Both the position numbers and the translations under genes were made by a program. From a virus: 58,538 nucleotides of DNA. Shown here piece after piece: positions 9,759-29,929 of the stretch; the stretch's first letter is position 1, and the number at the start of each line of letters is the position of its first letter. The stretch lies in the IMG/VR virus record IMGVR_UViG_3300038463_000101, positions 1 to 58,538 of that record; one strand, 5' to 3'. The notes below the pieces were generated by a model. It searched no databases, was not told where the DNA came from, and saw nothing but the letters and a program-made list of their open reading frames with translations.

Positions 9759-10133
9759 GTGGCACCCTCATGGGCAGTTAGGCTGCGCACGTTGTTAGAC
9801 GCGACCGGCTGGACGCAGGAGCAGGCATCGGCGCGGTTTAAGCGGTCGTGGTCATCATTGGCGCGGGTCTTGAAGGGTAATAAGACCGTAAAGATGGTGG
9901 AGTTAGTGGTGCGGTTGAAGGAGTTGGAGGAGGCACATGCGGGAGAGATTGAAGCGCTCAGGGCAGGGGTCATCAGTTACCGGAGGCACCGCGGCCGTGA
10001 TGGGAAGCTTAAGAGGAGAGTCCGGTATGACTTCCGGGCGAGAGTCAGAGCGCAAGGGGAGCGCGTTAGTCGGCCTGCTGACCTCGCGGCGATGGGAGCG
10101 GTGGGCGGGGGTAATGAGGGTGAGGGGGTTTGA
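9759..10133 (+). CDS. Helix-turn-helix protein, 124 aa
   Basis: Near the N-terminus, WAVRLRTLLDATGWTQEQAS then ARFKRSWSSLARVLKGNKT has the layout of an XRE-type helix-turn-helix. A predicted coiled helix (VVRLKELEEAHAGEIEALRA) and a very basic tail follow. GTG at 9759, just after the previous stop, is preferred; ATG at 9717 is possible. A candidate transcription regulator or small terminase-like DNA binder. The second half overlaps the next gene in another frame. Confidence 0.6.
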   Translation: MAPSWAVRLRTLLDATGWTQEQASARFKRSWSSLARVLKGNKTVKMVELVVRLKELEEAHAGEIEALRAGVISYRRHRGRDGKLKRRVRYDFRARVRAQGERVSRPADLAAMGAVGGGNEGEGV

Positions 10134-10534: not shown

Positions 10535-10787
10535 CGGACGCCCGCCGGACAGACAGCCGCTTGTGCTGGAGGACGTGCCGCAGCCCTCTCTGCCGGTGTG
10601 CGGTTTTTGCGGCATGTCGCCGGCGATGATCCAGACCGCGTTTCTGAACACGCCGTGGGGAGCGCGACTGGCGACATTCTTTTGCGAGAGTTGCAAGGCA
10701 GTGTTTGGGGTGCAAGTGGTGGCGATGGAGCAGCCGAGGCAGGCAGAGCCACTGATCATGACGCCGGGGGAGGCGTTCAGGCCGTGA
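10521..10787 (+). CDS. Zinc-ribbon protein, 88 aa
   Basis: Cys pairs CGFC and CESC separated by about 24 residues, with WGARLATFFCESCKAVFGVQ forming the second knuckle, typical of small zinc ribbons. The N-terminus is Arg/Pro-rich. It overlaps the previous gene by 14 nt and the next by GTGA. Unknown role. Confidence 0.65.
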   Translation: MPRSNGRPPDRQPLVLEDVPQPSLPVCGFCGMSPAMIQTAFLNTPWGARLATFFCESCKAVFGVQVVAMEQPRQAEPLIMTPGEAFRP

Positions 10788-10960
10788 GTGTTGACAAGTG
10801 TAGGTATCGAGACGATGAGTTACCGCCGAAGTACGCCTTCCCCGCCGGCTTTGCGGACTGTCGGTTTTGCCGAGGCAAGGGCTGTTTTAGTTGCGACGAA
10901 AGAGCGGTAAGGATAAAGAAAGAGCAGGATGCCGTTAAAAAGCCAGACATTACCAAATAA
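10784..10960 (+). CDS. Small Cys-rich protein, 58 aa
   Basis: GTG start overlapping the previous stop. The central GFADCRFCRGKGCFSC has paired Cys with Gly spacing like a half DnaJ zinc finger; the tail is Lys-rich. A longer frame from 10598 was rejected because it runs through the preceding gene. Confidence 0.6.
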   Translation: MSVDKCRYRDDELPPKYAFPAGFADCRFCRGKGCFSCDERAVRIKKEQDAVKKPDITK

Positions 10961-11513
10961 GCGTCTCACCGGCCTCGAACTGATGGCAATTTTGAAAAAG
11001 CATTTCCACGAGATGCTGTCTCGTGATTATGCGTTCACGCCAAACGTGGCTTACGGCCGCGTGGCGGTGAATCTCACAGTGACGCTGCACATTGCCGGGG
11101 TGACCTCCGAGCATGTGGTGCGGTCGTATACCAAGGCGGATGGCGTTATTGAAGGTGAGCCTCCGCTGGCCGACCCGGTGGAAGAGGATGCCGCGCTGAT
11201 TGCGTTGAGCCGGGATTTGAAGATTGATAATCCGAACTTGGAGCGTGTTGCGGCAGATTTGCCCATCGTGTTTCAGCAGCGAGCACAGCAACAGGCCCCG
11301 CAGGAATGGACCCCGCCATTGCCGGGGGAGCCGCCGCCGGATGCGATTATCAAGCCGTATGACGTGGAGACGGTGGAGGTGCGGTATGACAAGGCGCAGT
11401 ATCCAGCGGCGCCGGAGCCGGTAGACCGGGACGTGTCGGCGGAGAAGGGTAAGGAGTTGGGTGTGCCGCATCATGTACGGAAGGGAGCGATGATGAAGGA
11501 GCGGAAAGGATAG
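10929..11513 (+). CDS. Hypothetical protein, 194 aa
   Basis: ATG at 10929 with GAGCAGG upstream; ATG at 10983 (ELMAILKKHFHEMLS) is an alternative. Residues 20-90 look like a beta-rich domain (AYGRVAVNLTVTLHIAGVTS), followed by a long Pro-rich linker and a basic end. No family recognised. It lies among genes preceding the terminase, so a minor packaging or head role is possible but unproven. Confidence 0.6.
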   Translation: MPLKSQTLPNKRLTGLELMAILKKHFHEMLSRDYAFTPNVAYGRVAVNLTVTLHIAGVTSEHVVRSYTKADGVIEGEPPLADPVEEDAALIALSRDLKIDNPNLERVAADLPIVFQQRAQQQAPQEWTPPLPGEPPPDAIIKPYDVETVEVRYDKAQYPAAPEPVDRDVSAEKGKELGVPHHVRKGAMMKERKG

Positions 11514-15744: not shown

Positions 15745-17824
15745 CGCCCTCATGGGCTCGATGCCCGACGCATGGCGCGAATGGCAAGCGCCGGTTTACA
15801 ACGCCACCGAAGATCGCAAAATCGGTTGGCTGAACGAGGCGTGCCAAGAGGGCAACTCGTGGCAGCAAGGGCAGCGCGGCTTCGATGATTGGAGCAAGGC
15901 GCTCGACATCTTCGCCGGAACCTACTCCGACAAGAACGCCTTGCAGTACCGCAGCCAGTTCACAGGAAACCGGCTGAAGACGAATATCCGCGTGACCGTG
16001 GCGGGCCTCTCCGCCATCCGGCCTTGGTCGGGGTACACCGCGAGCGATGCTTTCAAAAAAGAAGCGCTCATGATGAACCTCACCACGCGGTCGCTGTATC
16101 TGGCGAACCACTGGGATCTGAGCATCAAAGAAGCGCTGTGGTGGGCGAGTGTAACCGGCGGCGGCTTTGTGCGGCCTGTGTTCCGGCGCGACATGGCAGG
16201 GCAAGGCCACGGCAGCATCCAGTTCGATACTTGCGGCTGGCCCAACGTATTGCCCGTTCAACTGCCTTCAAACGGGGACTTAAACCGCGCGTATGCGGTC
16301 ACTTACCTTGACGAGAAGCCGATATGGGAGGCGCACGGCATCTTTCGGGACTTTCAAGACCGCCTGAAGCCCACGAGCAGCAAGTATTGGTACTCGAATC
16401 AAATCCGTAAGGCCAGTCAAGCGAACGCCGAGCGGCGGTTTTGGACGAATCCTTTTAAGAAACGCGAGCAGTCGGACTCGGCCAAGCTCCTCATTCCGAT
16501 TCGATACACGCGCATCAACGACCTAGCCATCAATACGACGGGCAAAACGATTTACATGGGAGAGGAAGGCGCAAGCTGGGCCTATGAAGTGCCGAGCTTT
16601 GGCGCGGAGATTCCGACCGGGACCGATAGGGACGGCCACCCGACCTACCGCAAGGCAGAGATTCCCGACTGCCGGCTGTATCCCTACGGTCGCATGATGA
16701 TCAGTTCGGAAAACTGCGTGATGTACGACGGTCCCGACTTCAACTGGCACGGCGAGCTTGACCTGATTCTGTTCTCGCTGGAACGCTACCCTTGGGAGCC
16801 GATGGGCTTCTCGATGGTGCATGACGGTTGGGGCTTCCAAAAGGCCATCGACGGGCTGGACCGCGGCAATCTCGACAAAGCGAACGCCGACATGGATAGA
16901 CCGTTGGCGTACAACATGAACGCGGTCGGCAAGCGTGAGGCTAATCAGGTTGACTTGATGCAGCCCCGGCAGCGCATCGCCTTCGACGGGGACGCGGTAG
17001 ACAGGCCGTTCACGCAAATCGCCCCTGACGACGTTTATAAGATCAGCCCAGAGTCCTTGGCGCTGAAAGACAAGTTCGAGCAGGGCATGGACTACACGCT
17101 GCAAACCCGCGACGTGGTGGAACTGGCGAAGGCCCGCGCACTTGGAAAGGGCATCGACCAACTCGAAGCGCTCATCAGCGCATCCGGCCCACTGGTGAAA
17201 GAGATGTCGCACGGCATGGAAAAGCCGATTTGCCAGCTTGCGAACCAAGTCAAATACTTGGTCCTGCAATATATGGACACGTCGCAACTCATCCCGTTTA
17301 TCACGGAATCTGGCGCGGCGCATGTGTTTGACTACAATCCTTCTGAGCTAACACCGTCGCACCTCCCCGGCGAGTTGACGACCGACGCCAACGGCCAGCC
17401 GGTCGGCTCACCCACCACACGCATCAACCGGGCTCGTTGGTTTGCCCGCAACCTTCCTTTCGTCTGCACGCCGCACAGTATTCATGAGATTCACCAGATT
17501 CAGCACATTCTCATGAAGATGCAGATGAAGCAGCGTGGCGCCCCAATACCGTGGGCGGATATTATGGAAGCAGCCAGCTTCGAGGACGTGAAGCGGCCAA
17601 CAGGGTCCACGATCCAAGAGCGCTTTTTCAGCGAGACTGAGGAGCAAATCGAGTTCCAAATGCGGCTGGCGAAGGCCGCGCAGGGCTTGGGCATTGATAT
17701 TGGGCAGTTGATGGGTGCGGGTGGTGCGGGGAAGAAGCCGGAAGGCCGGCCGCCCAGCGGACAAACTAGCCCAAAAATGGAACAAAAAGGCGATGGCCGT
17801 CCTGTTATTTCCGAGAGTGGTTGA
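15731..17824 (+). CDS. Portal (head-tail connector) protein
   Basis: 697 aa, the size of podovirus-type portals. It lies directly after the terminase and before scaffold and capsid. The long helical central part with DRGNLDKANADMDRPLAYNM and DYTLQTRDVVELAKARAL is consistent with the portal wing and stem, and the C-terminal Gln/Gly-rich tail is typical. It forms the dodecameric channel through which DNA is pumped. ATG 15731 has GAAGGAG close upstream; ATG 15752 is an alternative. A GIY-YIG gene begins one base into its stop codon. Confidence 0.82.
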   Translation: MLLSSALMGSMPDAWREWQAPVYNATEDRKIGWLNEACQEGNSWQQGQRGFDDWSKALDIFAGTYSDKNALQYRSQFTGNRLKTNIRVTVAGLSAIRPWSGYTASDAFKKEALMMNLTTRSLYLANHWDLSIKEALWWASVTGGGFVRPVFRRDMAGQGHGSIQFDTCGWPNVLPVQLPSNGDLNRAYAVTYLDEKPIWEAHGIFRDFQDRLKPTSSKYWYSNQIRKASQANAERRFWTNPFKKREQSDSAKLLIPIRYTRINDLAINTTGKTIYMGEEGASWAYEVPSFGAEIPTGTDRDGHPTYRKAEIPDCRLYPYGRMMISSENCVMYDGPDFNWHGELDLILFSLERYPWEPMGFSMVHDGWGFQKAIDGLDRGNLDKANADMDRPLAYNMNAVGKREANQVDLMQPRQRIAFDGDAVDRPFTQIAPDDVYKISPESLALKDKFEQGMDYTLQTRDVVELAKARALGKGIDQLEALISASGPLVKEMSHGMEKPICQLANQVKYLVLQYMDTSQLIPFITESGAAHVFDYNPSELTPSHLPGELTTDANGQPVGSPTTRINRARWFARNLPFVCTPHSIHEIHQIQHILMKMQMKQRGAPIPWADIMEAASFEDVKRPTGSTIQERFFSETEEQIEFQMRLAKAAQGLGIDIGQLMGAGGAGKKPEGRPPSGQTSPKMEQKGDGRPVISESG

Positions 17825-18636
17825 TGAGTAGAAGCGTAAACATCTATACATTACTCGATCCCGTTTCCGGAGAGCCGCGCTATGTCGGCCTAACTCGCGA
17901 CATGAAAAAGCGGATGCAGAACTACGCTTACAAAGCACACAATAAACACCTCGATAGATGGCTGAAGAAGTTGAAGGCTGAAGGTAGCGGGCCGCGCGTT
18001 GTCATTCTCTGCGTCATACCGGAAGAAGTGGCGGATAAGTTCGAACGTCGCTGGATTCGCCGGATGCGACAACGCGGCTTCAACCTCATGAACTACACAG
18101 ATGGTGGCGAAGGTGCGTTTGAGTTCTCTTTAGAATCCAGAAAAAAACTGTCGGATTTGATGAAAAATAGGTGGGCAGATAATCGCGAAAAGATGATGGC
18201 TGAGTGCCAAAGCCCAGAAGTAGCGGCGAAGCGAGCATCGACTCGCGGCCCACGATCCGGCAGACATAACGCGATCTGCGGTGAGCGGATTACCAAGCTA
18301 AACAAGTCTCGGCGTGGCGTGCCGCTTTCGGTTGAGCATGTGGAAAAAGTTAGACAATCAATTCTTAGCAAGAAGATCGTTAAAACGCCGGAAGAGAGGG
18401 CCGCTATATCAGAAAGAATGAAAAAGCGTTGGCGCGAAAACGAAGCCTATCGAGCGGCCGCCATCGCAAGGCTCAGTACGACCCAATTCAAGGCCGGTAA
18501 TGCGGAAATAGCACGGCGTGGCGGATTAGCTTCTCACGCAAAAAATCCAGACAACGCGAGAAAAGCAGCATTAGCGGCGATGGCCGTGATGGAGCGAGAT
18601 CCTAAGACGGGCAGGCTGGTAGGCAGGAAGCGATGA
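17824..18636 (+). CDS. GIY-YIG homing endonuclease with NUMOD-like repeats
   Basis: 270 aa. The N-terminus carries the GIY-YIG core: IYTLLDPVSGEPRYVGLTRD, then RWIRRMRQRGFNLMNYTDGG, which holds the conserved Arg and Asn-Gly region. The C-terminal half is a chain of basic DNA-binding modules (AISERMKKRWRENE). It would cut at a specific site, probably in a phage lacking the insertion. It is free-standing, placed exactly between the portal and a small gene, sharing the stop/start of each. Its base composition is more AT-rich and Lys-rich than its neighbours, consistent with recent transfer. Confidence 0.85.
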   Translation: MSRSVNIYTLLDPVSGEPRYVGLTRDMKKRMQNYAYKAHNKHLDRWLKKLKAEGSGPRVVILCVIPEEVADKFERRWIRRMRQRGFNLMNYTDGGEGAFEFSLESRKKLSDLMKNRWADNREKMMAECQSPEVAAKRASTRGPRSGRHNAICGERITKLNKSRRGVPLSVEHVEKVRQSILSKKIVKTPEERAAISERMKKRWRENEAYRAAAIARLSTTQFKAGNAEIARRGGLASHAKNPDNARKAALAAMAVMERDPKTGRLVGRKR

Positions 18637-20420: not shown

Positions 20421-21590
20421 ATGGCAAGCCCGGACCCTTTGTTTGACCAAATTTCCGCTACCACTCTCAGCGATCTCCGACGCGATGCTGTGCAAGATAA
20501 CTTCTTTGTCGAGGGCGCATGGCAGCGCATCACGCGCTACTACCACGCGGAAGATCCATTCTTCGGCGGGACATGGATGCAAGAGCCGTTCATGTTCAAC
20601 CGCGTGAATGGCGGCGCGTACAACCCCGGACAGGACGTCGAGGTAGCGCAGGTGCAAATCCTCGCGGCAATGGCCTTCCAGCCACGCGCCTACAAGGAAG
20701 ACGTTCCGATCAATATGTGGCAGACGGAGGTGATTAACGCGGGACCGGCAGCGGCAGTGAGCACCTACGACACGTATATGACGAACGCGGTCCAAGCGCT
20801 GTCAACCGATTTGAATATCGACGCCTACCAGCATGGCCAGCCAGCCAGTGCCACCGTCACCAATAACCGCGTCATCTTCATGAACGGTATTGACGAGGCA
20901 CTGAACGATGGCGTCAACCCGACCGTCTACGGCAACATCTACACCACCTATGGCGGGCAGACGCGCAATGGGCAAGTCGGCAACGTGCTGAATGCGATTC
21001 CGATTTGGGCGGGCGACTCCAACGGCAATACCGGCCCCGTCTCCTACGGTCTTCTGTTCGGCGGGTCTTACCTGAATTGCGTGCAAGAACCGGACACCGG
21101 TCTTTGCAATAAAGCGGCTTTTGGCTACATTGCCAACCGCAACGAGCCGAAACAGCGGTTCGCGCAGGAAGAGAAGGATGTTCGTATCGGCTTGACCGGC
21201 TTCCGAATCATGGACGCCATGATTCACGTTGACAAGCTGGCGCCCTCGACCAAGTTCGGAAACATTCTGCCTTCCGGCCTCTCGCAGACGACTCCTGGCC
21301 CGCTGTCCAACTTCACCAGCCCGTCGTATTCCCCGGTTGTTGGGTCTAGCAACACGGTATCCAACTTTCCGGCCTCGAAGACCTGCCAGCCCGGTGAGCC
21401 GTTCTACTGGCTCCGGTTGCAGGACTTCAAGTTGCGGCCCGCGCGTAGCCCGGAGTACAACCACAATTTCACGCCGCCGATTCGGACGCAGAACAACCCG
21501 GATTTGATCGTAATGTTTTACAAAGCCGCCACAAATTATTACACGACAAGTCCAAGAGATAACAGCATGGTAGTTGGAATCGGCTCATAA
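20421..21590 (+). CDS. Major capsid protein
   Basis: 389 aa, a usual size for an HK97-fold capsid protein, directly after the scaffold with AAGGTAACC upstream. Recognisable parts are the N-terminal arm (LFDQISATTLSDLRRDAVQD), the MFNRVNGGAYNPG loop, and a long central domain with NDGVNPTVYGNIYTTYGG. Fold assignment is by gene order and general pattern, not by a diagnostic motif. The C-terminal sequence also contains a TTGGAA that serves as the -35 of the next gene's promoter. Confidence 0.82.
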   Translation: MASPDPLFDQISATTLSDLRRDAVQDNFFVEGAWQRITRYYHAEDPFFGGTWMQEPFMFNRVNGGAYNPGQDVEVAQVQILAAMAFQPRAYKEDVPINMWQTEVINAGPAAAVSTYDTYMTNAVQALSTDLNIDAYQHGQPASATVTNNRVIFMNGIDEALNDGVNPTVYGNIYTTYGGQTRNGQVGNVLNAIPIWAGDSNGNTGPVSYGLLFGGSYLNCVQEPDTGLCNKAAFGYIANRNEPKQRFAQEEKDVRIGLTGFRIMDAMIHVDKLAPSTKFGNILPSGLSQTTPGPLSNFTSPSYSPVVGSSNTVSNFPASKTCQPGEPFYWLRLQDFKLRPARSPEYNHNFTPPIRTQNNPDLIVMFYKAATNYYTTSPRDNSMVVGIGS

Positions 21591-21608: not shown

Positions 21609-22268
21609 ATGAGACAGACACAACGTATGGCTAGTTTGATTGGCAAGGCTGGTGAGCACGCGGTGGCCGCGCAACTCATGATAAGGGGCATGGGAATATA
21701 TTTTCCCGCGTCCGATTATGGCGTTGACTTGATTGCCGAAAATGGTTGCCGCATTCAGGTGAAGTCTTCGCACTTAGCGACTACCGAAAAAATGATTGCG
21801 AAGCGTGGCGAGACGAGTTATACGTTCCCGCTGCGTAGGCAGAAACGAATCGCAGTGGCTGACTCTAAGTGCCGCATGATCGATCGGCCTAAATTGGCTG
21901 AAGTTTGCGATGTCCTCGCGTGCTGGGGTATTGACCAGAATCGATTTTGGCTTATTCCATCAGCGGTGGCGGATAAATCGAGTTGCCTGATTCTGGGTCG
22001 TCCGCAGCCGCGCAAGTTCGTTGGCTCGATGGAAGACGTTCGGCAGATGGTGAAGCTTGGCTATACCCATCAGCAAATCGCCAATCACTATGGCGTAGCC
22101 AGAACGTCAATCACGATTTTCCTTAACCGGGAAAACTTTGAGAGCCAAGAGGCTGACGGCACGATGATAGCGCGGCAGTGCGAGAACGCCTGGGAAAACA
22201 TCATCGACTTCAAACGAGAGGATTCCGTAGTTGCCGTGCAAGAACGCGCGGCGCAAGAGGAGACTTAA
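21609..22268 (+). CDS. PD-(D/E)XK homing-endonuclease-like protein with HTH
   Basis: 219 aa. The N-terminal fold has GKAGEHAVAAQLMIRGMGIY, the catalytic Asp in SDYGVDLIAE, and the Q-x-K of RIQVKSS, the pattern of PD-(D/E)XK enzymes related to group I intron endonucleases. A helix-turn-helix (YTHQQIANHYGVARTSITIF) follows near residue 155. It stands alone, with its own leaderless promoter, between the capsid gene and the next structural gene. It is a selfish homing gene or moron, and its single-gene promoter is typical of morons. No intron borders were seen. Confidence 0.75.
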   Translation: MRQTQRMASLIGKAGEHAVAAQLMIRGMGIYFPASDYGVDLIAENGCRIQVKSSHLATTEKMIAKRGETSYTFPLRRQKRIAVADSKCRMIDRPKLAEVCDVLACWGIDQNRFWLIPSAVADKSSCLILGRPQPRKFVGSMEDVRQMVKLGYTHQQIANHYGVARTSITIFLNRENFESQEADGTMIARQCENAWENIIDFKREDSVVAVQERAAQEET

Positions 22269-23042
22269 ATGGCATCAGGACGTTTCTCAAAACAGGCGGT
22301 TTGGACCGGCCCCCGGCAAATCAACAGCAATAACGCCTTCGACAACCAGATTGGCGGGACGCTGAACACGTTCCCCGGCGGCGTAACGGCGACCGGCGCG
22401 AACCAAGGATTCCAAACCCTCCCTGGCGACCGCGTGATTTTATCGCCTTCGGACGCCCTCGTTTGGTCGAACAACAACGTCGGCAACCTGTATACCGGCA
22501 CATTCCGGTATGTGTCGATGCGGAACAACTCGACGGCCACGCCGGAGCGAGCACGCGCGGCATTCTGGGATCTGAACGCGGCTGGCGGAAACAACAACGT
22601 TTCGAGCGAGGCGTCCGATGCGCTCTATCAGGTGACCCCGGACGAAGGGGCGAATAGCTCTGTGGCGTTCATGGCGGGCGTTTATATCAACAACGTTTCG
22701 GTGAACAACAACAATTCCTGGTACTGGTGGATTCAGGAATCTGGCAAGACGAGTGTGCGCTTCGTTGGGAACAACGGAACTGTGGTTTACGGGTCGGGAG
22801 CGAATAACAACCTGGCGGCCGGAGCGGCGATTGCCAGTGGCGTTTACCTCGCGGCGGCCAGCAACGCGAACAACCAGCTCACCGTGGGCCTGTTCAACAC
22901 GTCAGGAAACGCGAACGCGACAACGAACAACCTGATCGACAATATGCTGGTGCGCTACGTTGGGCCGGCGGAAACGGCTCCGACGAACGGGAATATCTCG
23001 CTGGTGGACATCACGTTGGCCAGAGCATCGTTCCGGTGGTAG
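22269..23042 (+). CDS. Head or tail structural protein, 257 aa
   Basis: GAGGAG ribosome site before ATG 22269. Asn/Gly/Ser/Thr-rich and beta-rich, with NSNNAFDNQIGGTLNTFPGG and ALVWSNNNVGNLYTGTFRYV. The composition matches minor capsid or decoration proteins and tail fibre knobs. It follows the capsid gene (the nuclease is an insertion) and is followed by a terminator, so it closes the head module. No specific family recognised. Confidence 0.65.
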   Translation: MASGRFSKQAVWTGPRQINSNNAFDNQIGGTLNTFPGGVTATGANQGFQTLPGDRVILSPSDALVWSNNNVGNLYTGTFRYVSMRNNSTATPERARAAFWDLNAAGGNNNVSSEASDALYQVTPDEGANSSVAFMAGVYINNVSVNNNNSWYWWIQESGKTSVRFVGNNGTVVYGSGANNNLAAGAAIASGVYLAAASNANNQLTVGLFNTSGNANATTNNLIDNMLVRYVGPAETAPTNGNISLVDITLARASFRW

Positions 23043-23078
23043 AATAGCCGTAATCGTAAACATTCCTCCGAAGCGAGA

Positions 23079-23115
23079 ACCGCCAGTAGCCGAGCCCCTC
23101 GGACTGGCGGTTTTT
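23079..23115 (+). terminator. Intrinsic terminator after the head module
   Basis: ACCGCCAGT (23079-23087) pairs with ACTGGCGGT (23103-23111); the loop itself contains CCGAG/CTCGG. It is followed by TTTTT. Seven bases later TGTTATGAT starts the next, leaderless, gene. Confidence 0.9.
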
Positions 23116-23131
23116 GTTATGATTGAGCCGT

Positions 23132-23311
23132 ATGCCAGCCCCGCCGTTCTACGACAAAACCTACATGGATGCGATAGAAACGCGCTTGGCAGCGCTCGAA
23201 GCCGCCAATAGCCAACCAGCCATCGAACCCCGCGTGGCCGCAATAGAGAACACGCTGGAGAAGGTAGACGCGGCTTTACAACCCACGCCAGCACCGAAGG
23301 CCGCCAAGTGA
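23132..23311 (+). CDS. Coiled-coil hypothetical protein, 59 aa
   Basis: ATG 23132 lies eight bases after an extended -10 (TGTTATGAT) directly behind a terminator, with no ribosome site; probably leaderless. Residues 12-50 form a coiled coil (YMDAIETRLAALEAANSQPA then IEPRVAAIENTLEKVDAALQ) and the tail is Pro/Lys-rich. Structural or scaffold-like role possible. The next gene overlaps as GTGA. Confidence 0.6.
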   Translation: MPAPPFYDKTYMDAIETRLAALEAANSQPAIEPRVAAIENTLEKVDAALQPTPAPKAAK

Positions 23312-23529
23312 GGAACCCGGAAGACCGGACTCCCGCCGAAGCCCGCGAGATTGGGCGGCTCATGACGGCGCATAAAGTGGCGACGGACCCAGAAGCGAAG
23401 GCAAGGGTGGAGTCTGTTTACGGGGTAGCTTACTGCCAACAGAGGTATCCAGAGGCGTATGTAAGCACCAATAACCGGGCGGGATTCTCGAAGATGTTAG
23501 ATAGGGTGAGGGCGGCGATTCCGTGGTGA
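23308..23529 (+). CDS. Hypothetical protein, 73 aa
   Basis: GTG start overlapping the preceding stop (GTGA). Helical and charged (PAEAREIGRLMTAHKVATDP), ending NRAGFSKMLDRVRAAIPW. It ends ahead of an inverted repeat (CAACAGC...GCTGTTG, 23550s-23596) that may stop transcription before the next promoter. Confidence 0.6.
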   Translation: MRNPEDRTPAEAREIGRLMTAHKVATDPEAKARVESVYGVAYCQQRYPEAYVSTNNRAGFSKMLDRVRAAIPW

Positions 23530-23890: not shown

Positions 23891-24082
23891 ATGGATAGTC
23901 CAGACGTTTACACCCCTCCCAGCCGCGAGCAGGCCATCAAATACCTAGTGGAAGCGGCAGATGAAGTCATCGCAATTAACGCCGAATCCCACTTCACCGG
24001 ATCTCGCCTGAACCATGCCATAGGCAAGCTTGATGGCGCGTTTCAGACCTTCAAGATGGTCGATGAGGAGGCGGGGAAGTGA
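23891..24082 (+). CDS. Hypothetical helical protein, 63 aa
   Basis: ATG 23891 (TTG 23885 possible). Helix-turn-helix-like layout with REQAIKYLVEAADEVIAINA and a second helix SRLNHAIGKLDGAFQTFKMV. It resembles the 23633 product in length and helical pairing, perhaps distant paralogs. The glycosyltransferase start overlaps its stop. Confidence 0.55.
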   Translation: MDSPDVYTPPSREQAIKYLVEAADEVIAINAESHFTGSRLNHAIGKLDGAFQTFKMVDEEAGK

Positions 24083-24912
24083 GAAAAACTTTATACACCC
24101 TCAACATCGACAATTACGAGCCCGCCATCTGCGATCTGACCTACCCGCTGATGAAGCACTATGCCAATAAAATCGGCGCTCAGTTCCACATCATCTCCGA
24201 ACGGAAGTTCCCGGACTGGCCGGTGACGTATGAGAAGTTGCAAGTGGCCGAGTTCGCGAGCGCCTTCGATGACGAGTGGAGCATCTTTATAGACTCCGAC
24301 ACACTGATCAATCCAGAAATGTTCGACGTGACCGAGCAGATGGGCAAGGATACCGTCTGCCACAACGGTAAGGACTTCGCCAACGTCCGATGGTCCTACG
24401 ACAAGTATTTCCGCCGCGACGGGCGTGGCTGGGGCTCCTGCAACTGGTTTACGGTCGGATCTGAATGGACCCGCGACGACCTCTGGCGGCCGCTCGATGA
24501 CCTCACCCTTGAGCAAGCGCTGGCCAATATCCACATCACGGTCGGAGAGCACAACAGCGGGCATTGCAAGACAGAGCATCTGATTGACGACTACACCCTC
24601 AGCCGCAATATCGCCCGCTTCGGCCTCAAAGCCACTACCGTAGGCGACATCTGCGGTAACCTTGGATGGAAAGGCCCGGATGGTAAAGGCTTCAGCCCGT
24701 TCCTGTTCCATCTCTACACTTTGTCTTCCGCCGACAAATTGAAACGCATGATCGCCGTACTCACAACGCCGAACGGAAAACCCTACTGGGAAGATGGCCG
24801 CGGCGGGTTTCAGCAGCAGCCCACCGTGGCAGGGCAACCGCCGGCTGGCGCGGGGTGGGGGTTGATGACGCCAGAGGATTTGGGGAAGTTTAAGGAGAAG
24901 TGGGGAGTATGA
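24079..24912 (+). CDS. Glycosyltransferase-like protein (GT-A, DxD)
   Basis: 277 aa, GTG start overlapping the previous stop. It looks like a GT-A fold. The order is an N-terminal NIDNYEPAICDLTYPLMKHY, then YEKLQVAEFASAFDDEWSIF, then the metal-binding DSD in FIDSDTLINPEMF near residue 72. A His-rich acceptor region follows. It probably transfers a sugar from a nucleotide donor to phage DNA, a virion protein or a host surface group. It heads a cassette with the radical SAM gene, but the link is inferred from proximity. Confidence 0.75.
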   Translation: MRKTLYTLNIDNYEPAICDLTYPLMKHYANKIGAQFHIISERKFPDWPVTYEKLQVAEFASAFDDEWSIFIDSDTLINPEMFDVTEQMGKDTVCHNGKDFANVRWSYDKYFRRDGRGWGSCNWFTVGSEWTRDDLWRPLDDLTLEQALANIHITVGEHNSGHCKTEHLIDDYTLSRNIARFGLKATTVGDICGNLGWKGPDGKGFSPFLFHLYTLSSADKLKRMIAVLTTPNGKPYWEDGRGGFQQQPTVAGQPPAGAGWGLMTPEDLGKFKEKWGV

Positions 24913-25046
24913 AGCGTTTCGCTGTTCGTCGCTGTGGCGATATCTGGTATGCGGTTGACACGCTAATGCACCGCGTTTGGACCCGCAAGACGTGGAAGCA
25001 AGCGTTTAATTGCTTACTGTTTGAGTATGGAGCAGAGTACAAATGA
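24909..25046 (+). CDS. Small basic protein, 45 aa
   Basis: ATGA overlap with the glycosyltransferase and ATGA overlap with the next gene. Beta-hairpin-like RFAVRRCGDIWYAVDTLMHR then VWTRKTWKQAFN. Small basic protein of unknown function; the double overlap shows that it is translated. Confidence 0.6.
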   Translation: MKRFAVRRCGDIWYAVDTLMHRVWTRKTWKQAFNCLLFEYGAEYK

Positions 25047-25390
25047 AGGAAGGGCAGTTCGTCGCACTGGTGGCGGTAATCGCTTGGGCGTCCTGGGTCG
25101 TTTGGATAGGAGTCAGGTCATTGAAACGCCAGCCCCGACTTAAGCCCTCCGACATCCCCGTAGCTCGGCTAAACAAAGGCCCTTTGCTGATTCTATTTGA
25201 CCAGAATTTAGTCAGCAAGTCGAACATCAACGAAGCACAACTTTGGATGAAGCGCAAAGGCATCGACTGCTTGGCGCTTGGCACGTTCGATACATTCCAA
25301 ATCAACATCGTGGATCTTGGGCAAGTGCCCGACGCCGACATCAACGAAATACGCCGCTTGATTGCGGAGAAAGTGACGGTGAGCGCGTGA
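25043..25390 (+). CDS. Membrane-anchored hypothetical, 115 aa
   Basis: N-terminal transmembrane helix (FVALVAVIAWASWVVWIGV) followed by a basic stretch and a soluble alpha/beta domain with GPLLILFDQNLVSKSNINEA and FDTFQINIVDLGQV. It may be a host-membrane protein; no family recognised. A GIY-YIG gene starts inside its stop codon. Confidence 0.6.
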   Translation: MKEGQFVALVAVIAWASWVVWIGVRSLKRQPRLKPSDIPVARLNKGPLLILFDQNLVSKSNINEAQLWMKRKGIDCLALGTFDTFQINIVDLGQVPDADINEIRRLIAEKVTVSA

Positions 25391-25974
25391 GCGAGCGCCC
25401 CGGCATCATCTACCTTGCGGTGAACCGCGTAAATGGTAAAAAGTACGTTGGGCAAACCACGCGCTCTATGTGGGCCAGAATCAGGGAGCATAAATACAAG
25501 TCCCAAAGTGGCCGTTTCCGGCAATTATTTTCCAAGGCAGTTGCTGAGTTCGGACTATCCACCTTTGAGTTTTCCGAGCTTGAAGTGTGTAGGCAATCAG
25601 AACTTACTGACCGCGAGACTTTCTGGATAGCCCATCACGATTGCGTCTCACCGAATGGATATAACGTTTCGGCTGGCGGTTCCGGCTTGGGTTGCAAGCG
25701 CTCACCAGAACACGTCAACAGTATCAGAATGGCTTTTCTTGGCAAACCCAAGTCCGAAGAGCACAAAGCTAAACTATGTGGCCCTAAGACGGCGGAGCAC
25801 ATCGCCAATTCCTCAAAGGCTAGGCAGTCAGAAGAATATAAGCGTCGAGCCTCCGACAGCCAACTGGCGGCGTGGGGAAAACGTGACCGCGAAGCTCAAC
25901 GCCAACGCACATTAGCGCAGTGGGCGAAGAGAAAAGCCGAAGGCTACACTCGGTTGAAGAGGGAAACAGCATGA
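25387..25974 (+). CDS. GIY-YIG homing endonuclease with NUMOD3
   Basis: 195 aa from GTG 25387. GIY-YIG core: IIYLAVNRVNGKKYVGQTTR, then RIREHKYKS; the catalytic-Glu region is DRETFWIAHHD and PNGYNVSAGG follows. Two NUMOD3 DNA-binding repeats (SPEHVNSIRMAFLGKPKSEE) make up the C-terminus. It overlaps genes on both sides by four bases. This is the second GIY-YIG gene in the window; the two differ and are not recent duplicates. Confidence 0.88.
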   Translation: MSERPGIIYLAVNRVNGKKYVGQTTRSMWARIREHKYKSQSGRFRQLFSKAVAEFGLSTFEFSELEVCRQSELTDRETFWIAHHDCVSPNGYNVSAGGSGLGCKRSPEHVNSIRMAFLGKPKSEEHKAKLCGPKTAEHIANSSKARQSEEYKRRASDSQLAAWGKRDREAQRQRTLAQWAKRKAEGYTRLKRETA

Positions 25975-27050
25975 AGTCACCAGCCGAGCACGTAACGATC
26001 CAAATCGAATTAACTTCGGCGTGCGTTAAGCGCTGCTCAAATTGCACCAGATTTTCAGGAACAAAACAGCGCGAATCGTTTATCACCGAAGAAAACTTCA
26101 AAAAGGCGATTGACTCTCTTGTAGAGTACTCTAAGCAACCGCATGCGCTAGTTGGGTTTATGGGCGGCGAAAGTTTGCTGCACCCTGCATTTCCTGAATT
26201 TTGCGAATATGCTTTAGCAAAGATTGGCCGCGAAAAACTGGGGCTTTGGTCAACATTTCCCGACGCGCCAAAATACATCGGGTATCGTGAGATCATTTGC
26301 AAGACATTTTCTTGCGTTTTGTTGAACGATCATAGCCGTGACGACATTCTCCACGCGCCAGTGCTGATGGCGAGCGAAGAATACTTTCAGGTGACTTGCA
26401 ATACATGCGGAGGGTTGCCCGCACATTCGCCCGACGAAGTCTGTCCGACGTGCCAAGGCAAAGGCACCGTGACCGATGATCGCGCCTTATTCCTCGCTAC
26501 CGAGCATTGCTGGATTCAAGAGCGCTGGTCTTCATCCATCAACAATAAGGGCGCATGGTTCTGTGAAGTAGCGGCAGCTCTCGCTGATTTGTTTGACGGT
26601 CCCGATGGGTGGGACGTGGAGGCTGGCTGGTGGAGACGCACGCCGATGGACTTCAAGGAACAGCGCGAGTGGGCGTGTAAAAAGTGCGGCGCTGCGTTGC
26701 CGTTAGAGCGAGTCCGCAACAGCCAAGACAATCGGGATGACGTGTCTCCCGGCAATCTGGAAAGACTGAAGGCCATCAAGTCGCGCAAAGTGGCGAAGGG
26801 CGAGTATGAGGTGCGCGATAAATTCGTGTTTGATCGAGCACTGATCGAGAACGGCACGTATCCGAGACAGACTTATCAAGATGAAATGTACCGCAGGGGC
26901 ATAGCCGCCCGCTACGGTATTGAACTTGTAATGAACAAGCGCGGATACTGGGAACCCGTTCTTATGAAAGGTGACTGGCGTAACCAGCAAGCGCCGATGC
27001 CCGCCCCGCCGCCGCCGAGCCTGTACCAGATTATGAGCAGTCAAGGGTAA
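25971..27050 (+). CDS. Radical SAM enzyme with inserted zinc and auxiliary Cys motifs
   Basis: 359 aa, ATGA overlap with the GIY-YIG gene. Residues 18-25 are the radical SAM cluster C-x3-C-x2-C (CVKRCSNC), with the GGE motif in GFMGGESLLHPAFPEF near residue 65. A Cys-rich insert CNTCGG...CPTCQGKG (about 142-165) resembles a DnaJ-type zinc knuckle. The C-terminal part has WFCEVAAALADLFDG and CKKCGAALPL, which could hold an auxiliary iron-sulfur cluster. It makes a 5'-deoxyadenosyl radical; the target is unknown. Neighbours are a glycosyltransferase and three paralogous small proteins. Confidence 0.85.
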   Translation: MKSPAEHVTIQIELTSACVKRCSNCTRFSGTKQRESFITEENFKKAIDSLVEYSKQPHALVGFMGGESLLHPAFPEFCEYALAKIGREKLGLWSTFPDAPKYIGYREIICKTFSCVLLNDHSRDDILHAPVLMASEEYFQVTCNTCGGLPAHSPDEVCPTCQGKGTVTDDRALFLATEHCWIQERWSSSINNKGAWFCEVAAALADLFDGPDGWDVEAGWWRRTPMDFKEQREWACKKCGAALPLERVRNSQDNRDDVSPGNLERLKAIKSRKVAKGEYEVRDKFVFDRALIENGTYPRQTYQDEMYRRGIAARYGIELVMNKRGYWEPVLMKGDWRNQQAPMPAPPPPSLYQIMSSQG

Positions 27051-27052
27051 CG

Positions 27053-27229
27053 ATGGCACGCCATCCCATCACTTGCACGTGCAAGCAGTGTGAAGACAAC
27101 TTCAAGCAACTTGAGCGCTTGATGGAGTGGATAAAAAAGCACGGCGCAACGGCTGCATCCATCAACGACTTTGCCGAATCAGAGGGCGAAACGCCCGATA
27201 AGTTTACCGTCAGCGTGTGCAAAAGGTAA
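27053..27229 (+). CDS. Small Cys-containing protein, 58 aa
   Basis: ATG three bases after the radical SAM stop, AAGGG upstream. N-terminal CTCKQC motif followed by a helix (FKQLERLMEWIKKHG). The last codon region contributes the TAAACT box of the next gene. Function unknown; it might cooperate with the radical SAM enzyme. Confidence 0.6.
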   Translation: MARHPITCTCKQCEDNFKQLERLMEWIKKHGATAASINDFAESEGETPDKFTVSVCKR

Positions 27230-27238
27230 ACTTATCTC

Positions 27239-27604
27239 ATGCCCCAGCTTCCCAAAATGAACATCCCCTGCGACGGCTACCCGGCCTCCGCAGCGCTGTG
27301 CGTAAAGAAGCATTACGTGGGCGATCATTTCGGAAGCAACAACTACCAGCAGGGCGGCTACAACATCAACGCCAGCGACTTAGCGATGTCTGGATTCGAG
27401 TGGGTGAACTTTACAGCAGGCAGTAATTCCGGCAATTACACGGCCTCGGCCACGCTCGCGGGCGCTTCCGGAAACATGGAACAGCGGGCGCGGGTGTTTC
27501 CTTCCATTGCGATGCAGTGGTATTACGCGAACAACAGCAACGAAGTGGCGAACAATACCGACCTGAGCGCGGAGTGTATCCGGCTGTTTGGGATAGGGTT
27601 ATGA
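27239..27604 (+). CDS. Paralog 1 of a tandem virion-like family, 121 aa
   Basis: ATG six bases after TAAACT, no ribosome site. Family features are shared with 28018 and 28418. They are PcDgYPas near residue 12, KKHYVGDHFGSNNYQQGGY, SDLAMSGFEWVNFTAGSNSG, and VANNTDLSAECIRLFGIGL at the end. Beta-rich and Asn/Gly/Ser-rich, as in fibre or decoration proteins. The first copy differs from the others by an N-terminal MPQLPKM and a Cys pair. Confidence 0.75.
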   Translation: MPQLPKMNIPCDGYPASAALCVKKHYVGDHFGSNNYQQGGYNINASDLAMSGFEWVNFTAGSNSGNYTASATLAGASGNMEQRARVFPSIAMQWYYANNSNEVANNTDLSAECIRLFGIGL

Positions 27605-27825
27605 AGGAGCAAGATCAGCACCCGCACGATTACGGTTGTCGCTGCCAACAGTGTTGCGCCATGAGCGCGGCCATTACCGCCGAGAATCCAGACGGCACGC
27701 CGTTCTTCAGCGATGAAGAATTATATGCACTGTCTGTAGCCAGCAATAACCCGATGCCCATGAGCGACCCGGAGCGCGATGCCTTCATGATGCGTGAGTG
27801 GATGGAGGCTAATCGACTACCATGA
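27601..27825 (+). CDS. Hypothetical protein with Cys motif, 74 aa
   Basis: ATGA overlap. HDYGCRCQQCCAM near the N-terminus suggests a metal site; FFSDEELYALSVAS then DAFMMREWMEANRLP are helical. It lies between family paralogs 1 and 2. No function assigned. Confidence 0.6.
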   Translation: MKEQDQHPHDYGCRCQQCCAMSAAITAENPDGTPFFSDEELYALSVASNNPMPMSDPERDAFMMREWMEANRLP

Positions 27826-28025
27826 AGGAACGCTCGAAGAAAGGAATCCGCGCGGCACGTAAGGCACCTAAGCCGGTCATCGTTGTGAACCTTCCGATTC
27901 CCAACACGCCGCGGACCCTCTGGCCGAACTGGAGACGGATGACAGCGCGGGTGCGGTTAGGCGGTTCGCCAGTGCAGCGCATACAGCAGATTTTAGGGAC
28001 AGGGGTGACTGAGCAGGATGCCTAA
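27822..28025 (+). CDS. Basic hypothetical protein, 67 aa
   Basis: ATGA overlap; N-terminus very basic (KERSKKGIRAARKAPKPV), then VIVVNLPIPNTPRTLWPNWR. Overlaps the second paralog start by eight bases. Unknown. Confidence 0.55.
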   Translation: MKERSKKGIRAARKAPKPVIVVNLPIPNTPRTLWPNWRRMTARVRLGGSPVQRIQQILGTGVTEQDA

Positions 28026-28374
28026 ACAGAACGTCGCTTGCGATGCGTACCCCAGCCCCGGCGCGATGGCCGTCAAGATTCCGTGGATTGGCGACCATTT
28101 CGGCCCCCAGAATTATCAGGCGAACGGATACAGTTTGACCGCATTCGCCCTGGGCATGTCCGGTTTCGAGTGGGTGGAGTTTACGGCCAGTTCAAACTCC
28201 GGCAATTACTTGGTGTCGGGGATACTCCCAGGCGGTGCAGGAAACACGGAATTTCGCGCGGTGACCTACCCCTACGTCACAGTTCAGTGGTTTTACGCGG
28301 CGAATGGAAATCAGGTGGCGAACAATACGAACTTGAGCGCGGAGCAGATTCGTTTGTTCGCGATAGGAATTTAG
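28018..28374 (+). CDS. Paralog 2 of the tandem virion-like family, 118 aa
   Basis: Start GAGCAGGATG inside the preceding gene. Shares ACDAYPSPGAMAVKIPWIGD, HFGPQNYQANGYSLTA, MSGFEWVEFTASSNSGNYLV and VANNTNLSAEQIRLFAIGI with its neighbours. Most similar to paralog 1 in the centre. The 13-base stretch TTCGAGTGGGTGG is shared at DNA level with paralog 1, consistent with duplication. Confidence 0.75.
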   Translation: MPKQNVACDAYPSPGAMAVKIPWIGDHFGPQNYQANGYSLTAFALGMSGFEWVEFTASSNSGNYLVSGILPGGAGNTEFRAVTYPYVTVQWFYAANGNQVANNTNLSAEQIRLFAIGI

Positions 28375-28417
28375 GGGGGGGCGCACCGCACCGCCTCAAT
28401 GGGCTACACTGAAACTT

Positions 28418-28795
28418 ATGGGCCGTCAATCAATTCCTTACGATCCGTACCCCGGACCTGGTGTAGTCGCCGTGAAGCTCGAATGGGCCGGCGACCACTT
28501 CGGCCCCGGCACCGCTGGCAATACCGGAGCCAACTACAACCAGAACGGCTACACACTCACCGCCGCGTCTCTTGGCATGTCGGGCTTCGAGCGGGTCGAT
28601 TTGGGGTATTCGTTATCGCAAAATTACTACGCACGCGCCTACTACCCGGCGAACAGCAGCAACGCCAGCGAGACACGCGCCTCGACTGCGGCCAATGTGA
28701 CGGTGACTTGGTATTACGCCGCGAACTCGGTCCAGGTGGCGAACAACACGGACTTGAGCGGCGAGTGCGTGAAGATGTATGCGCTAGGAATCTGA
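28418..28795 (+). CDS. Paralog 3 of the tandem virion-like family, 125 aa
   Basis: ATG seven bases behind TACACT, no ribosome site. Carries DPYPGPGVVAVKLEWAGDHF, an extra Gly/Asn-rich loop, GYTLTAASLGMSGFERVDLG and VANNTDLSGECVKMYALGI. The extra loop and fewer Ser-Gly-Asn-Tyr residues show divergence from copies 1 and 2. It is followed by a terminator, ending the cassette. Confidence 0.75.
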   Translation: MGRQSIPYDPYPGPGVVAVKLEWAGDHFGPGTAGNTGANYNQNGYTLTAASLGMSGFERVDLGYSLSQNYYARAYYPANSSNASETRASTAANVTVTWYYAANSVQVANNTDLSGECVKMYALGI

Positions 28796-28881: not shown

Positions 28882-28917
28882 GGGCCGTCTTTCCTACCAG
28901 AGACGGCCCTTGTTTTT
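28882..28917 (+). terminator. Intrinsic terminator
   Basis: GGGCCGTCT (28882-28890)/AGACGGCCC (28901-28909), then TTGTTTTT. A weaker hairpin GGTTG...CAACC precedes it (28859-28876). Confidence 0.88.
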
Positions 28918-28930
28918 GCGATACTGAAGC

Positions 28931-29929
28931 ATGGCGTTTTTGGACATGTATCAAGAAATAACCGGCTTGATACCGAAAATGTCAGTGGATTACGCCATGA
29001 CGCTCGTGAATAGGGCATGGCGCGACATCCGGCGTCAAAATCTTTGGTCATTCCAACTCTTCGACGCCAATTGGGTGAGCCCGAATCTCATTTCAGGCGT
29101 AGGCACCTGCACCACCGTTCAAGGATCGAATCAGGTAGTTTTCAATTCGACGGCCGCCGCCGCGCTGAACGCCATTTACCCCGGAGGGCCACTACCGAAC
29201 GGCTTGCTTTCCAGGCAATTCCGCGTTGGCATCTCCACCATCTACAACATTTGGGCTTGGAACAGCGGCACATTAACCATGACGCTCGACCGGCCTTTCA
29301 CCGATGTCGGCGGGAGCGGGCAGGGATTCACCATTTTCCAGTGCTATTACGCGGCCCCGTATCAAGACTTCCGGTGTTGGATCAACATTCGGGATATCGT
29401 CAATTTCAACAATCTGAACATCAACGGCACGCGCGAGCAAGTGGACAAGATGGACCCGCAGCGCACGCTTTTCTATCTGCCGACATGGTGCGTCCCGTAT
29501 CAGCAAGACATGAATCCGGCCTCGGCGACGTACACTTGGCCGATGTTCGAGTTGTGGGGGCAACCGCAATACTCGCTGGTCTACCAACTTTACGGCATCC
29601 GGCGCGGAGTGCCGCTCGTAAACGATACGGACACGCTGCCGCCACCCATCGGAGAGGACGTGGTGATTGCGCTCGCCGGTTCTTACGCCTACCGGTGGGC
29701 GGAAGGAACGAAAGGCGACATGCCGCGCAACGTGGGTGCCGACTTCAAATTCCTCATCGGCTCAACGATGGCGGAATACAAGAGGCTTTATAGGGACTAT
29801 CGGCTGCAGGACCGAGAGCTTGTCGATAACTGGTACAACGTTTATAATCGACCGCAGGTGTTCACAAATTTATGGGGTTACTACAACTCGATCGGAATGA
29901 CTGCTAATCCAGGCGCGGCCTGGGATTGA
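28931..29929 (+). CDS. Tail adaptor or tail-tube-like structural protein, 332 aa
   Basis: ATG seven bases after GATACT, behind the terminator. N-terminus MYQEITGLIPKMSVDYAMTL then VNRAWRDIRRQNLWSF is the typical start of podovirus head-tail adaptor proteins. The rest is beta-rich and ends with YRWAEGTKGDMPRNVGADFK. It likely docks onto the portal. Family recognised by pattern, not by an absolute signature. Confidence 0.65.
   Translation: MAFLDMYQEITGLIPKMSVDYAMTLVNRAWRDIRRQNLWSFQLFDANWVSPNLISGVGTCTTVQGSNQVVFNSTAAAALNAIYPGGPLPNGLLSRQFRVGISTIYNIWAWNSGTLTMTLDRPFTDVGGSGQGFTIFQCYYAAPYQDFRCWINIRDIVNFNNLNINGTREQVDKMDPQRTLFYLPTWCVPYQQDMNPASATYTWPMFELWGQPQYSLVYQLYGIRRGVPLVNDTDTLPPPIGEDVVIALAGSYAYRWAEGTKGDMPRNVGADFKFLIGSTMAEYKRLYRDYRLQDRELVDNWYNVYNRPQVFTNLWGYYNSIGMTANPGAAWD

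Follow-up and report, generated by a model that had tools for sequence, protein, structure and literature searches.

Gene content of the locus

We analysed a stretch of 58,538 nucleotides of viral DNA (IMG/VR record IMGVR_UViG_3300038463_000101), here called the window, which derives from a podovirus-like soil phage, probably with an Acidobacteria host. A sequence-only reading had singled out six open reading frames, all of which proved real and lie on the plus strand: a putative glycosyltransferase of 277 amino acids (GT, 24079–24912), a radical SAM enzyme (rSAM, 25971–27050), a 58-residue peptide with a CTCKQC motif (27053–27229) and three proteins of about 120 residues (PAR; paralog 1, 27239–27604; paralog 2, 28018–28374; paralog 3, 28418–28795). 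The description of the latter as tandem paralogs is borne out by identities of 58% and 54% (E 1e-45 and 5e-32) of paralogs 1 and 3 to paralog 2, and the terminator said to end the run was found at 28882–28909 (plus strand); it is strong and intrinsic, with an 11 bp stem followed by TTGTTTTT (RNA z -4.4). Two further features had been overlooked. A terminator-like hairpin at 23068–23118 (plus strand; RNA fold -32.1 kcal/mol, z -8.1), terminating in TTTTTGTT, is stronger than the terminator behind the paralogs and parts the upstream virion-module gene from the segment that runs from GT to the paralogs. Between GT and rSAM, a free-standing GIY-YIG homing endonuclease is encoded at 25390–25974 (plus strand; Pfam GIY-YIG 1e-8, NCBIfam grpIintron_endo 3.6e-20); its catalytic domain lies outside an intron, and a search for a group I intron around it gave no Rfam match in the window.

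The flanking genes are those of a virion module. The major capsid protein (MCP, 20421–21590, plus strand), located outside the segment flagged previously, is 32.5% identical over 98% to the protein annotated as major head protein in Tunturi_1/2 and 79% identical to its counterpart in locus L001. Directly 3' of it, and upstream of the hairpin, lies the gene for P6 (22269–23042, plus strand), an Asn-rich protein of 257 residues that follows MCP in L001, L008, L009, L014, L016, L094, L099 and L100 as well and forms the left flank of the insertion. The right backbone flank is a tail or adaptor protein (28931–29929, plus strand; 35% identity to the 'tail protein' ORF11 of Tunturi_1 and 61% to L001). 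Members of the PAR family are also present in L001, L008, L014, L016, L094, L099, L100 and Tunturi_1/2, with paralog 2 showing 34% identity over 90% to Tunturi_1 ORF10. The order MCP, P6, paralog and tail gene is kept in L099, L100 and the isolated Acidobacteria phage Tunturi_1, and because these relatives have neither GT nor rSAM in their whole records, the paralogs are backbone genes of the phage, separate from the cassette of GT and rSAM. The proposal of one cassette comprising GT, rSAM and paralogs was thus not sustained, as the paralogs occur without the two enzymes and the enzymes without the paralogs. Co-occurrence of rSAM and paralogs in relatives had been named as its test; the outcome is mixed, with both present at four loci (the window, L001, L008 and L016) and each frequently encountered without the other.

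Several small reading frames complete the segment. A conserved one encoding 73 residues (23308–23529, plus strand) is a companion of the cassette in the lineage of the window: it is always located between P6 and GT, its HMM matches are confined to cassette-bearing loci of this lineage (window, L001, L008, L009, L014/15, L016, L094), and a search through the complete records of L099, L100 and Tunturi_1 did not detect it. Another (25043–25390, plus strand) is partly conserved in L001, with 34% identity over 67 residues to positions 10780–11049. The CTCKQC peptide, previously counted as a partner in the cassette, was detected by tblastn against all fetched loci in the window only. As it is not conserved across rSAM loci it was rejected as a substrate of rSAM, to which it is probably unrelated. 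A second small Cys-motif frame (CRCQQC; 27601–27825, plus strand) between paralogs 1 and 2 has no homologue in the fetched loci.

The two enzymes

On its own, the 24079 reading frame yields no match in Pfam or PHROG, and its designation as a glycosyltransferase holds only through its family, which comprises members from 80+ viral loci. In 51 of these proteins the aspartates D72 and D74 of a DxD motif, as well as H211, are invariant; some members give weak Pfam matches to GT21, GT2 or GT34, and in the region of the DxD motif a profile comparison gives a match to GT2 proteins (P 6e-4, with controls at 0.13–0.36). With modest confidence, we consider the protein a putative GT-A glycosyltransferase. 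A search for GT34 relatives in seven genomes returned none, and neither did its controls. The gene following GT in L014 resembled a second glycosyltransferase by eye, a reading that is unproven and for which no match to the GT profile was obtained.

While a single-sequence query with rSAM found nothing in phages and viral contigs, an alignment-based query recovered its relatives. The protein has the hallmarks of the superfamily, an invariant CxxxCxxC cluster motif (C18-x3-C22-x2-C25) in a predicted partial TIM barrel, and a Pfam Radical_SAM match (E 7e-5) that falls below the curated cut-off. The extra Cys motifs reported for it are real, but represent two different things. A twitch-type quartet (C180, C198, C236, C239) is invariant in 108/108 relatives, with no further conserved cysteine, and the seven residues of both sets together are invariant in 107–108 of the 108 phage and bacterial members. 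The remaining motif is a DnaJ-like CxxC...CxxC zinc-ribbon insert (residues 143–161; 26397–26453, plus strand; Pfam DnaJ_CXXCXGXG E 0.009), whose cysteines are found in just four of the relatives (window, L001, L016 and L008).

A structural model of rSAM (pLDDT 91, pTM 0.87) retrieved SpeY (E 2.6e-8) and BtrN (E 1.3e-5) as the best folds in the PDB using Foldseek, and RiPP maturases, with SkfB and SuiB in the list, as well as DesII ranked weaker. With TM-scores as low as 0.36–0.56 and a core that is common to peptide-modifying enzymes, the modelled fold would leave the substrate of rSAM unfixed. SpeY, from spectinomycin biosynthesis, is a dehydrogenase acting on the antibiotic's precursor. The arrangement C180-x17-C198...C236xxC239 resembles that of the four-Cys auxiliary cluster in BtrN. 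SpeY and BtrN, the best matches to its predicted fold, resemble rSAM in the order of core and twitch and in both Cys sets, at an identity of only 12–17%; unlike them, the phage enzyme is encoded beside a GT and, in the window's lineage, contains the zinc-ribbon insert. BtrN, of the butirosin pathway, is a dehydrogenase of an aminocyclitol with an auxiliary cluster ligated by four cysteines (PMC9012708). At the level of the Cys pattern, rSAM likewise appears to have a single C-terminal auxiliary cluster of this type, and we predict it to be a sugar dehydrogenase or epimerase.

Distribution of the pair and of bacterial rSAM relatives

GT and rSAM occur on the same strand and in the same order in 24 viral loci, mostly from unrelated phages: 24/24 rSAM loci, including every one identified through rSAM alone, also have a GT on that strand. 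Distances within the two families are correlated (Mantel r 0.60, p 1e-4), also if the window's lineage is left out. The carriers are unrelated phages; one of them, L007, encodes its MCP as a fusion with a protease (PHROG 617). Matches to PHROGs of tail-fibre, head and adaptor proteins were obtained for genes flanking the GT blocks. Within the lineage of the window, one and the same slot is occupied by GT and rSAM, by GT with another gene, by a fusion of GT with a methyltransferase, or is empty. Some phage cassettes add a Methyltransf_24 protein (also as a GT fusion) and a nucleotide-sugar SDR or sugar epimerase. As read from these sequences, GT and rSAM move as a pair, which here has entered the backbone after P6 and before the paralogs; its conservation, portability and insertion site, as well as the backbone status of the paralogs, have the same basis as the Cys sets and the predicted fold. 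The earlier view of the two enzymes as a unit among virion genes was correct, and this location makes it reasonable to hypothesise that the virion is chemically decorated.

The bacterial relatives of rSAM sit in nucleotide-sugar and surface-glycan loci, as evidenced by the presence of GT2, NDP-sugar SDR, NeuB, RmlC, UGD or similar genes in 47 of 56 loci of at least 12 kb. A Brachyspira contig (L130) is an example in which all seven cysteines are kept and GT2, SDR and nucleotidyltransferase genes are neighbours, and by its description a published rSAM, glycosyltransferase and epimerase block of Brachyspira (PMC4267127) is alike. These loci differ from the phage cassette in that most of their rSAM proteins bear a C-terminal extension and that they yielded no member of the phage GT family. 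On plasmids, the bacterial rSAM gave one weak partial match.

Among phages, variable host-recognition regions of pelagimyophages contain glycosyltransferases and rSAM gene cassettes beside tail-fibre genes (PMC7029224), a likeness by description that concerns the kinds of genes and their neighbourhood. Phage-encoded glycosyltransferases decorate the capsid and tail tube of the mycobacteriophages Che8 (gp110), Corndog (gp38) and Myrna (PMC12363180, citing Freeman 2023); the part of that source consulted mentions no rSAM. The position of the cassette in the virion module would fit such virion glycosylation. To our knowledge, few systems of this kind have been described.

Acceptors and proposed function

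In P6, asparagine makes up 15.2% of the residues in the window and 7.8–15.2% in cassette-bearing relatives, but 3.4–5.7% in cassette-less ones. The Asn content of P6 and PAR fully separates both groups, while that of MCP does not, a contrast that may reflect a single evolutionary split. At 50 other GT loci, the genes closest to GT encode proteins with a higher content of Asn (p 0.002) and Gly (p 3e-5) than more distant ones; in the rSAM-positive subset alone (n=15) the same test was not significant, and such neighbours could simply be fibre-type proteins. P6 is a candidate decoration protein and glycan acceptor. The paralogs had been taken for surface proteins, a label that draws on gene order alone: the model of paralog 2 (pLDDT 86; alignment rows from the window and IMG/VR only) is all-beta, and a fold search against BFVD and the PDB gave no match below E 1e-3. 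We looked for virion proteomics in the Tunturi paper and found none.

Our preferred reading, to which we assign a probability of about 0.5, is that GT attaches a sugar to a virion surface protein and that the twitch-type rSAM oxidises or epimerises this sugar, with P6 and PAR as the likeliest acceptors; sugar substrate, chemistry and acceptor are what we infer. The cassette, inserted between the two virion-module genes, would supply a GT-A enzyme that moves a sugar from a nucleotide-sugar donor onto the protein. Before or after transfer, rSAM would take a hydrogen atom off a carbinol carbon of the sugar and hand an electron to its auxiliary cluster, yielding a keto-sugar; alternatively, the carbon would be epimerised. 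In other phages methyltransferase and sugar epimerase would complete the glycan, while here the Asn-rich neighbours would be modified. The more specific version, in which an oxidised or inverted sugar is installed on P6 and PAR, the zinc-ribbon insert is an adaptor to the acceptor and the GIY-YIG enzyme aids spread, is tentative and, as a whole, rather improbable. The recurrence of the GT and rSAM pair in unrelated phages suggests that these make chemically edited sugars, most likely on their own particles. Its conservation in many unrelated environmental phages would mean that glycans are edited by radical chemistry there, yielding sugars that may escape recognition by host enzymes or receptors, and the bacterial rSAM family of surface-glycan loci would gain its first compact test system, consisting of a gene pair, a single candidate pair of acceptors and naturally cassette-less relatives as controls.

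The cassette might instead alter a surface glycan of the host (LPS or capsule) late in infection, blocking superinfection or the re-adsorption of progeny to debris. We consider this possible but doubtful. It is in line with the surface-polysaccharide loci of the bacterial relatives, and the authors of PMC7029224 favour host O-chain modification by the pelagimyophage glycosyltransferases, in a variable region that gains rSAM cassettes as well. Against it, the cassette lies within the virion module of unrelated phages, beside fibre, head and adaptor genes, the contrast in asparagine falls in virion-module proteins, and a search of 297 Acidobacteriota genomes did not recover GT. Action of rSAM on side chains of a peptide or protein, either in a RiPP-like manner or directly on the paralogs, followed by glycosylation of the product, would accord with weak scores of its core with SPASM peptide maturases, with SkfB and SuiB in the fold list and with the joint presence of rSAM and paralog in four related phages. 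However, a RiPP maturase would be expected near a conserved precursor, for which the CTCKQC peptide fails, and a full SPASM domain holds two auxiliary clusters, whereas here just four extra cysteines are invariant. The core of rSAM begins at about residue 9 of the model and leaves no space for an N-terminal RRE domain; moreover, about 20 other rSAM loci lack paralogs and five paralog-bearing phages lack rSAM. That rSAM would act on the paralogs directly by radical chemistry, as envisaged in the sequence-only reading, is less likely because the closest folds are dehydrogenases of sugar-like rings and the bacterial relatives reside in glycan loci, and we regard the peptide route altogether as unlikely.

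Glycosyltransferases and rSAM enzymes of phages are also known from DNA hypermodification, and one methyltransferase of a cassette matches a PHROG named DNA methyltransferase. Production of a glycosylated or radically rearranged base that shields the phage genome is nevertheless most improbable, with the cassette among virion genes, no DNA-modification partner recognised among 20 other proteins of the window, a nucleotide-sugar epimerase and Methyltransf_24 as the other accessory genes and bacterial relatives that accompany glycan genes. It is also very unlikely that the block is mainly a selfish element, a homing endonuclease with hitchhiking cargo of little use to the phage. In the window, L001, L016, L010 and L074, which come from three unrelated backgrounds, the GIY-YIG gene does occupy the position precisely between GT and rSAM, but most GT and rSAM pairs are without the endonuclease and, at about 50% identity, still retain every catalytic residue.

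Gene order and the position of the paralogs

The open reading frames described for this segment by the sequence-only reading are present, all on the + strand; its three ~120-aa proteins (27239-27604, 28018-28374 and 28418-28795) are paralogs with identities of 58% and 54%, and a good terminator lies at the segment's end (28882-28909). Overlooked at that stage were another hairpin, at 23068-23118 and likewise strong (z -8.1), and, between the genes of a putative GT-A glycosyltransferase (GT, 24079-24912) and a twitch-type radical SAM enzyme (rSAM, 25971-27050), a gene for a GIY-YIG homing endonuclease (25390-25974). A second, weaker GIY-YIG endonuclease (17821-18636, Pfam 2.4e-5) is encoded upstream of the capsid genes.

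The window is one virus record of 58.5 kb. Its genes for capsid, portal and terminase, as well as the paralog and tail genes, share ~29-36% identity with those of two isolated podoviruses of Tunturiibacter (Acidobacteriota), Tunturi_1 and Tunturi_2, and from these relatives its host group would likewise be Acidobacteriota. As evidenced by profile scans, related loci of sufficient length keep the order of major capsid protein (MCP), P6 (an Asn-rich 257-aa protein, 22269-23042), paralog family (PAR) and tail/adaptor gene (28931-29929). PAR follows P6 after ~10 bases in L099 and L100, and ORF9, ORF10 and ORF11 of Tunturi_1 occupy the positions of P6, PAR and the tail gene, with a weak resemblance of ORF9 to P6. 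Whole-record searches of L099 (64 kb), L100 (65 kb) and Tunturi_1 (complete, 63 kb) found neither rSAM nor GT, and L094 and L014 contain GT without rSAM. The paralogs thus do not need the enzymes, and the proposal of one common unit was not upheld; on sequence comparison, the PAR genes are phage backbone. Among the loci compared, three PAR copies occur in the window only. A CTCKQC peptide (27053-27229) had wrongly been assigned to the same unit; it and a second small C-x-C-x-x-C frame (27601-27825), located before paralogs 1 and 2 respectively, have no homologues among the fetched loci.

A PDDEXK and HTH-like gene (21609-22268) separates MCP from P6. L099 has a similar gene in the same position and most relatives lack it, so that the virion module has taken up an insertion at this second point too.

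A glycosyltransferase and radical SAM pair

That GT and rSAM belong together near virion genes was confirmed, and the pair is best read as a portable cassette for sugar tailoring that has been inserted into the virion module. In the window, L001 and L016, the interval from P6 to PAR holds GT, GIY-YIG and rSAM. L008 holds the pair with no GIY-YIG match and L009 has P6, GT and rSAM, its contig stopping inside rSAM. In L014 and L015, GT is accompanied by a different gene; in L094, it is fused to a methyltransferase. A small frame (23308-23529) goes with the cassette in all of these loci, and searches of the three records without cassette did not find it. Between P6 and GT, L001 carries a tRNA-Met gene (9776-9851, anticodon cat); no tRNA genes were found in the window.

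The pair also occurs in clearly different phages beyond this lineage. In all 24 loci with rSAM, GT is on the same strand. Note that loci from L014 onward were fetched by GT, and the clean co-occurrence test is given by those fetched by rSAM alone (L007-L013), where GT is present in 7/7. GT without rSAM is commoner than the pair, with 80+ viral loci containing GT. Protein distances of the two are correlated (Mantel r 0.60, p 1e-4; 0.61 leaving out the lineage), as expected for a unit travelling together. A GIY-YIG gene lies between them in the window, L001, L016, L010 and L074, and is a possible vehicle of the pair.

Predicted functional determinants of the two enzymes

In an alignment of 23 phage and 85 bacterial rSAM sequences (n=108), C18, C22 and C25 are conserved in 107 and C180, C198, C236 and C239 in all. 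A DnaJ-like four-Cys zinc-ribbon insert (residues 143-161, window 26397-26453) is found in 4/108, limited to the window, L001, L016 and L008. SpeY, which acts in spectinomycin biosynthesis, is the best fold match (E 2.6e-8) to the AlphaFold model (pLDDT 91, pTM 0.87), followed by BtrN (1.3e-5); TM-scores are low, making this likeness a lead on the chemistry rather than proof. SkfB, SuiB and DesII match at 1e-4 or weaker. BtrN oxidises 2-deoxy-scyllo-inosamine and has an auxiliary cluster with four Cys ligands (PMC9012708). Sugar genes, identified via Pfam for representatives, accompany rSAM in 47 of 56 bacterial loci of at least 12 kb. The conserved cysteines, fold matches and bacterial neighbours together favour a sugar over a peptide as substrate, and the protein substrate suggested earlier is probably wrong; the reaction would be a dehydrogenation or epimerisation. 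Most bacterial relatives (L123, L130, L158 and others) are 100-250 aa longer C-terminally than the phage enzymes, and in L123, the one scanned, this extension had no Pfam match.

DxD and H211 are invariant in the GT family, which has no annotated PHROG and only in a few members a weak Pfam GT match. Its profile matches bacterial GT2 proteins exactly on the DxD region, with P 6e-4 as against 0.13-0.36 for unrelated controls. A search of 297 Acidobacteriota genomes, a set without positive control, did not find the GT. Fusions to and neighbours of GT include Methyltransf_24 and an NDP-sugar SDR, consistent with a glycan role.

Candidate acceptors

Mycobacteriophages use GTs of their own to glycosylate their capsid and tail tube (PMC12363180). 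In pelagimyophages, GTs and rSAM cassettes are situated close to tail fibres; these GTs were interpreted as LPS-related (PMC7029224). We found no description of a GT and twitch rSAM pair in phages among the open-access papers searched, and a portable cassette of this kind would be a novel form of virion (or host-surface) glycosylation.

Within the window's lineage, P6 contains 7.8-15.2% and PAR 8.8-12.6% Asn with the cassette, versus 3.4-5.7% and 3.7-6.5% without; MCP shows no such difference. Note that the MCP tree would allow a single gain, so that this contrast may go back to one event. In 50 GT loci beyond the lineage, the nearest genes are richer than farther ones in Asn (p 0.002) and Gly (p 3e-5) and slightly so in Thr (p 0.035), with no excess of Ser; for the 15 rSAM-positive loci taken alone, the excess fell short of significance. 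Among 93 proteins encoded beside GT blocks of other phages, 11 match PHROGs for tail-fibre assembly, and there are further matches to tail-fibre, head and adaptor families. Flanking families and composition fit, but do not prove, a glycan on neighbouring surface proteins. Directly after GT, ~13 loci encode a Gly-rich fibre-like protein (L066 1122-2510 and relatives; PHROG tail fibre assembly), another candidate acceptor.
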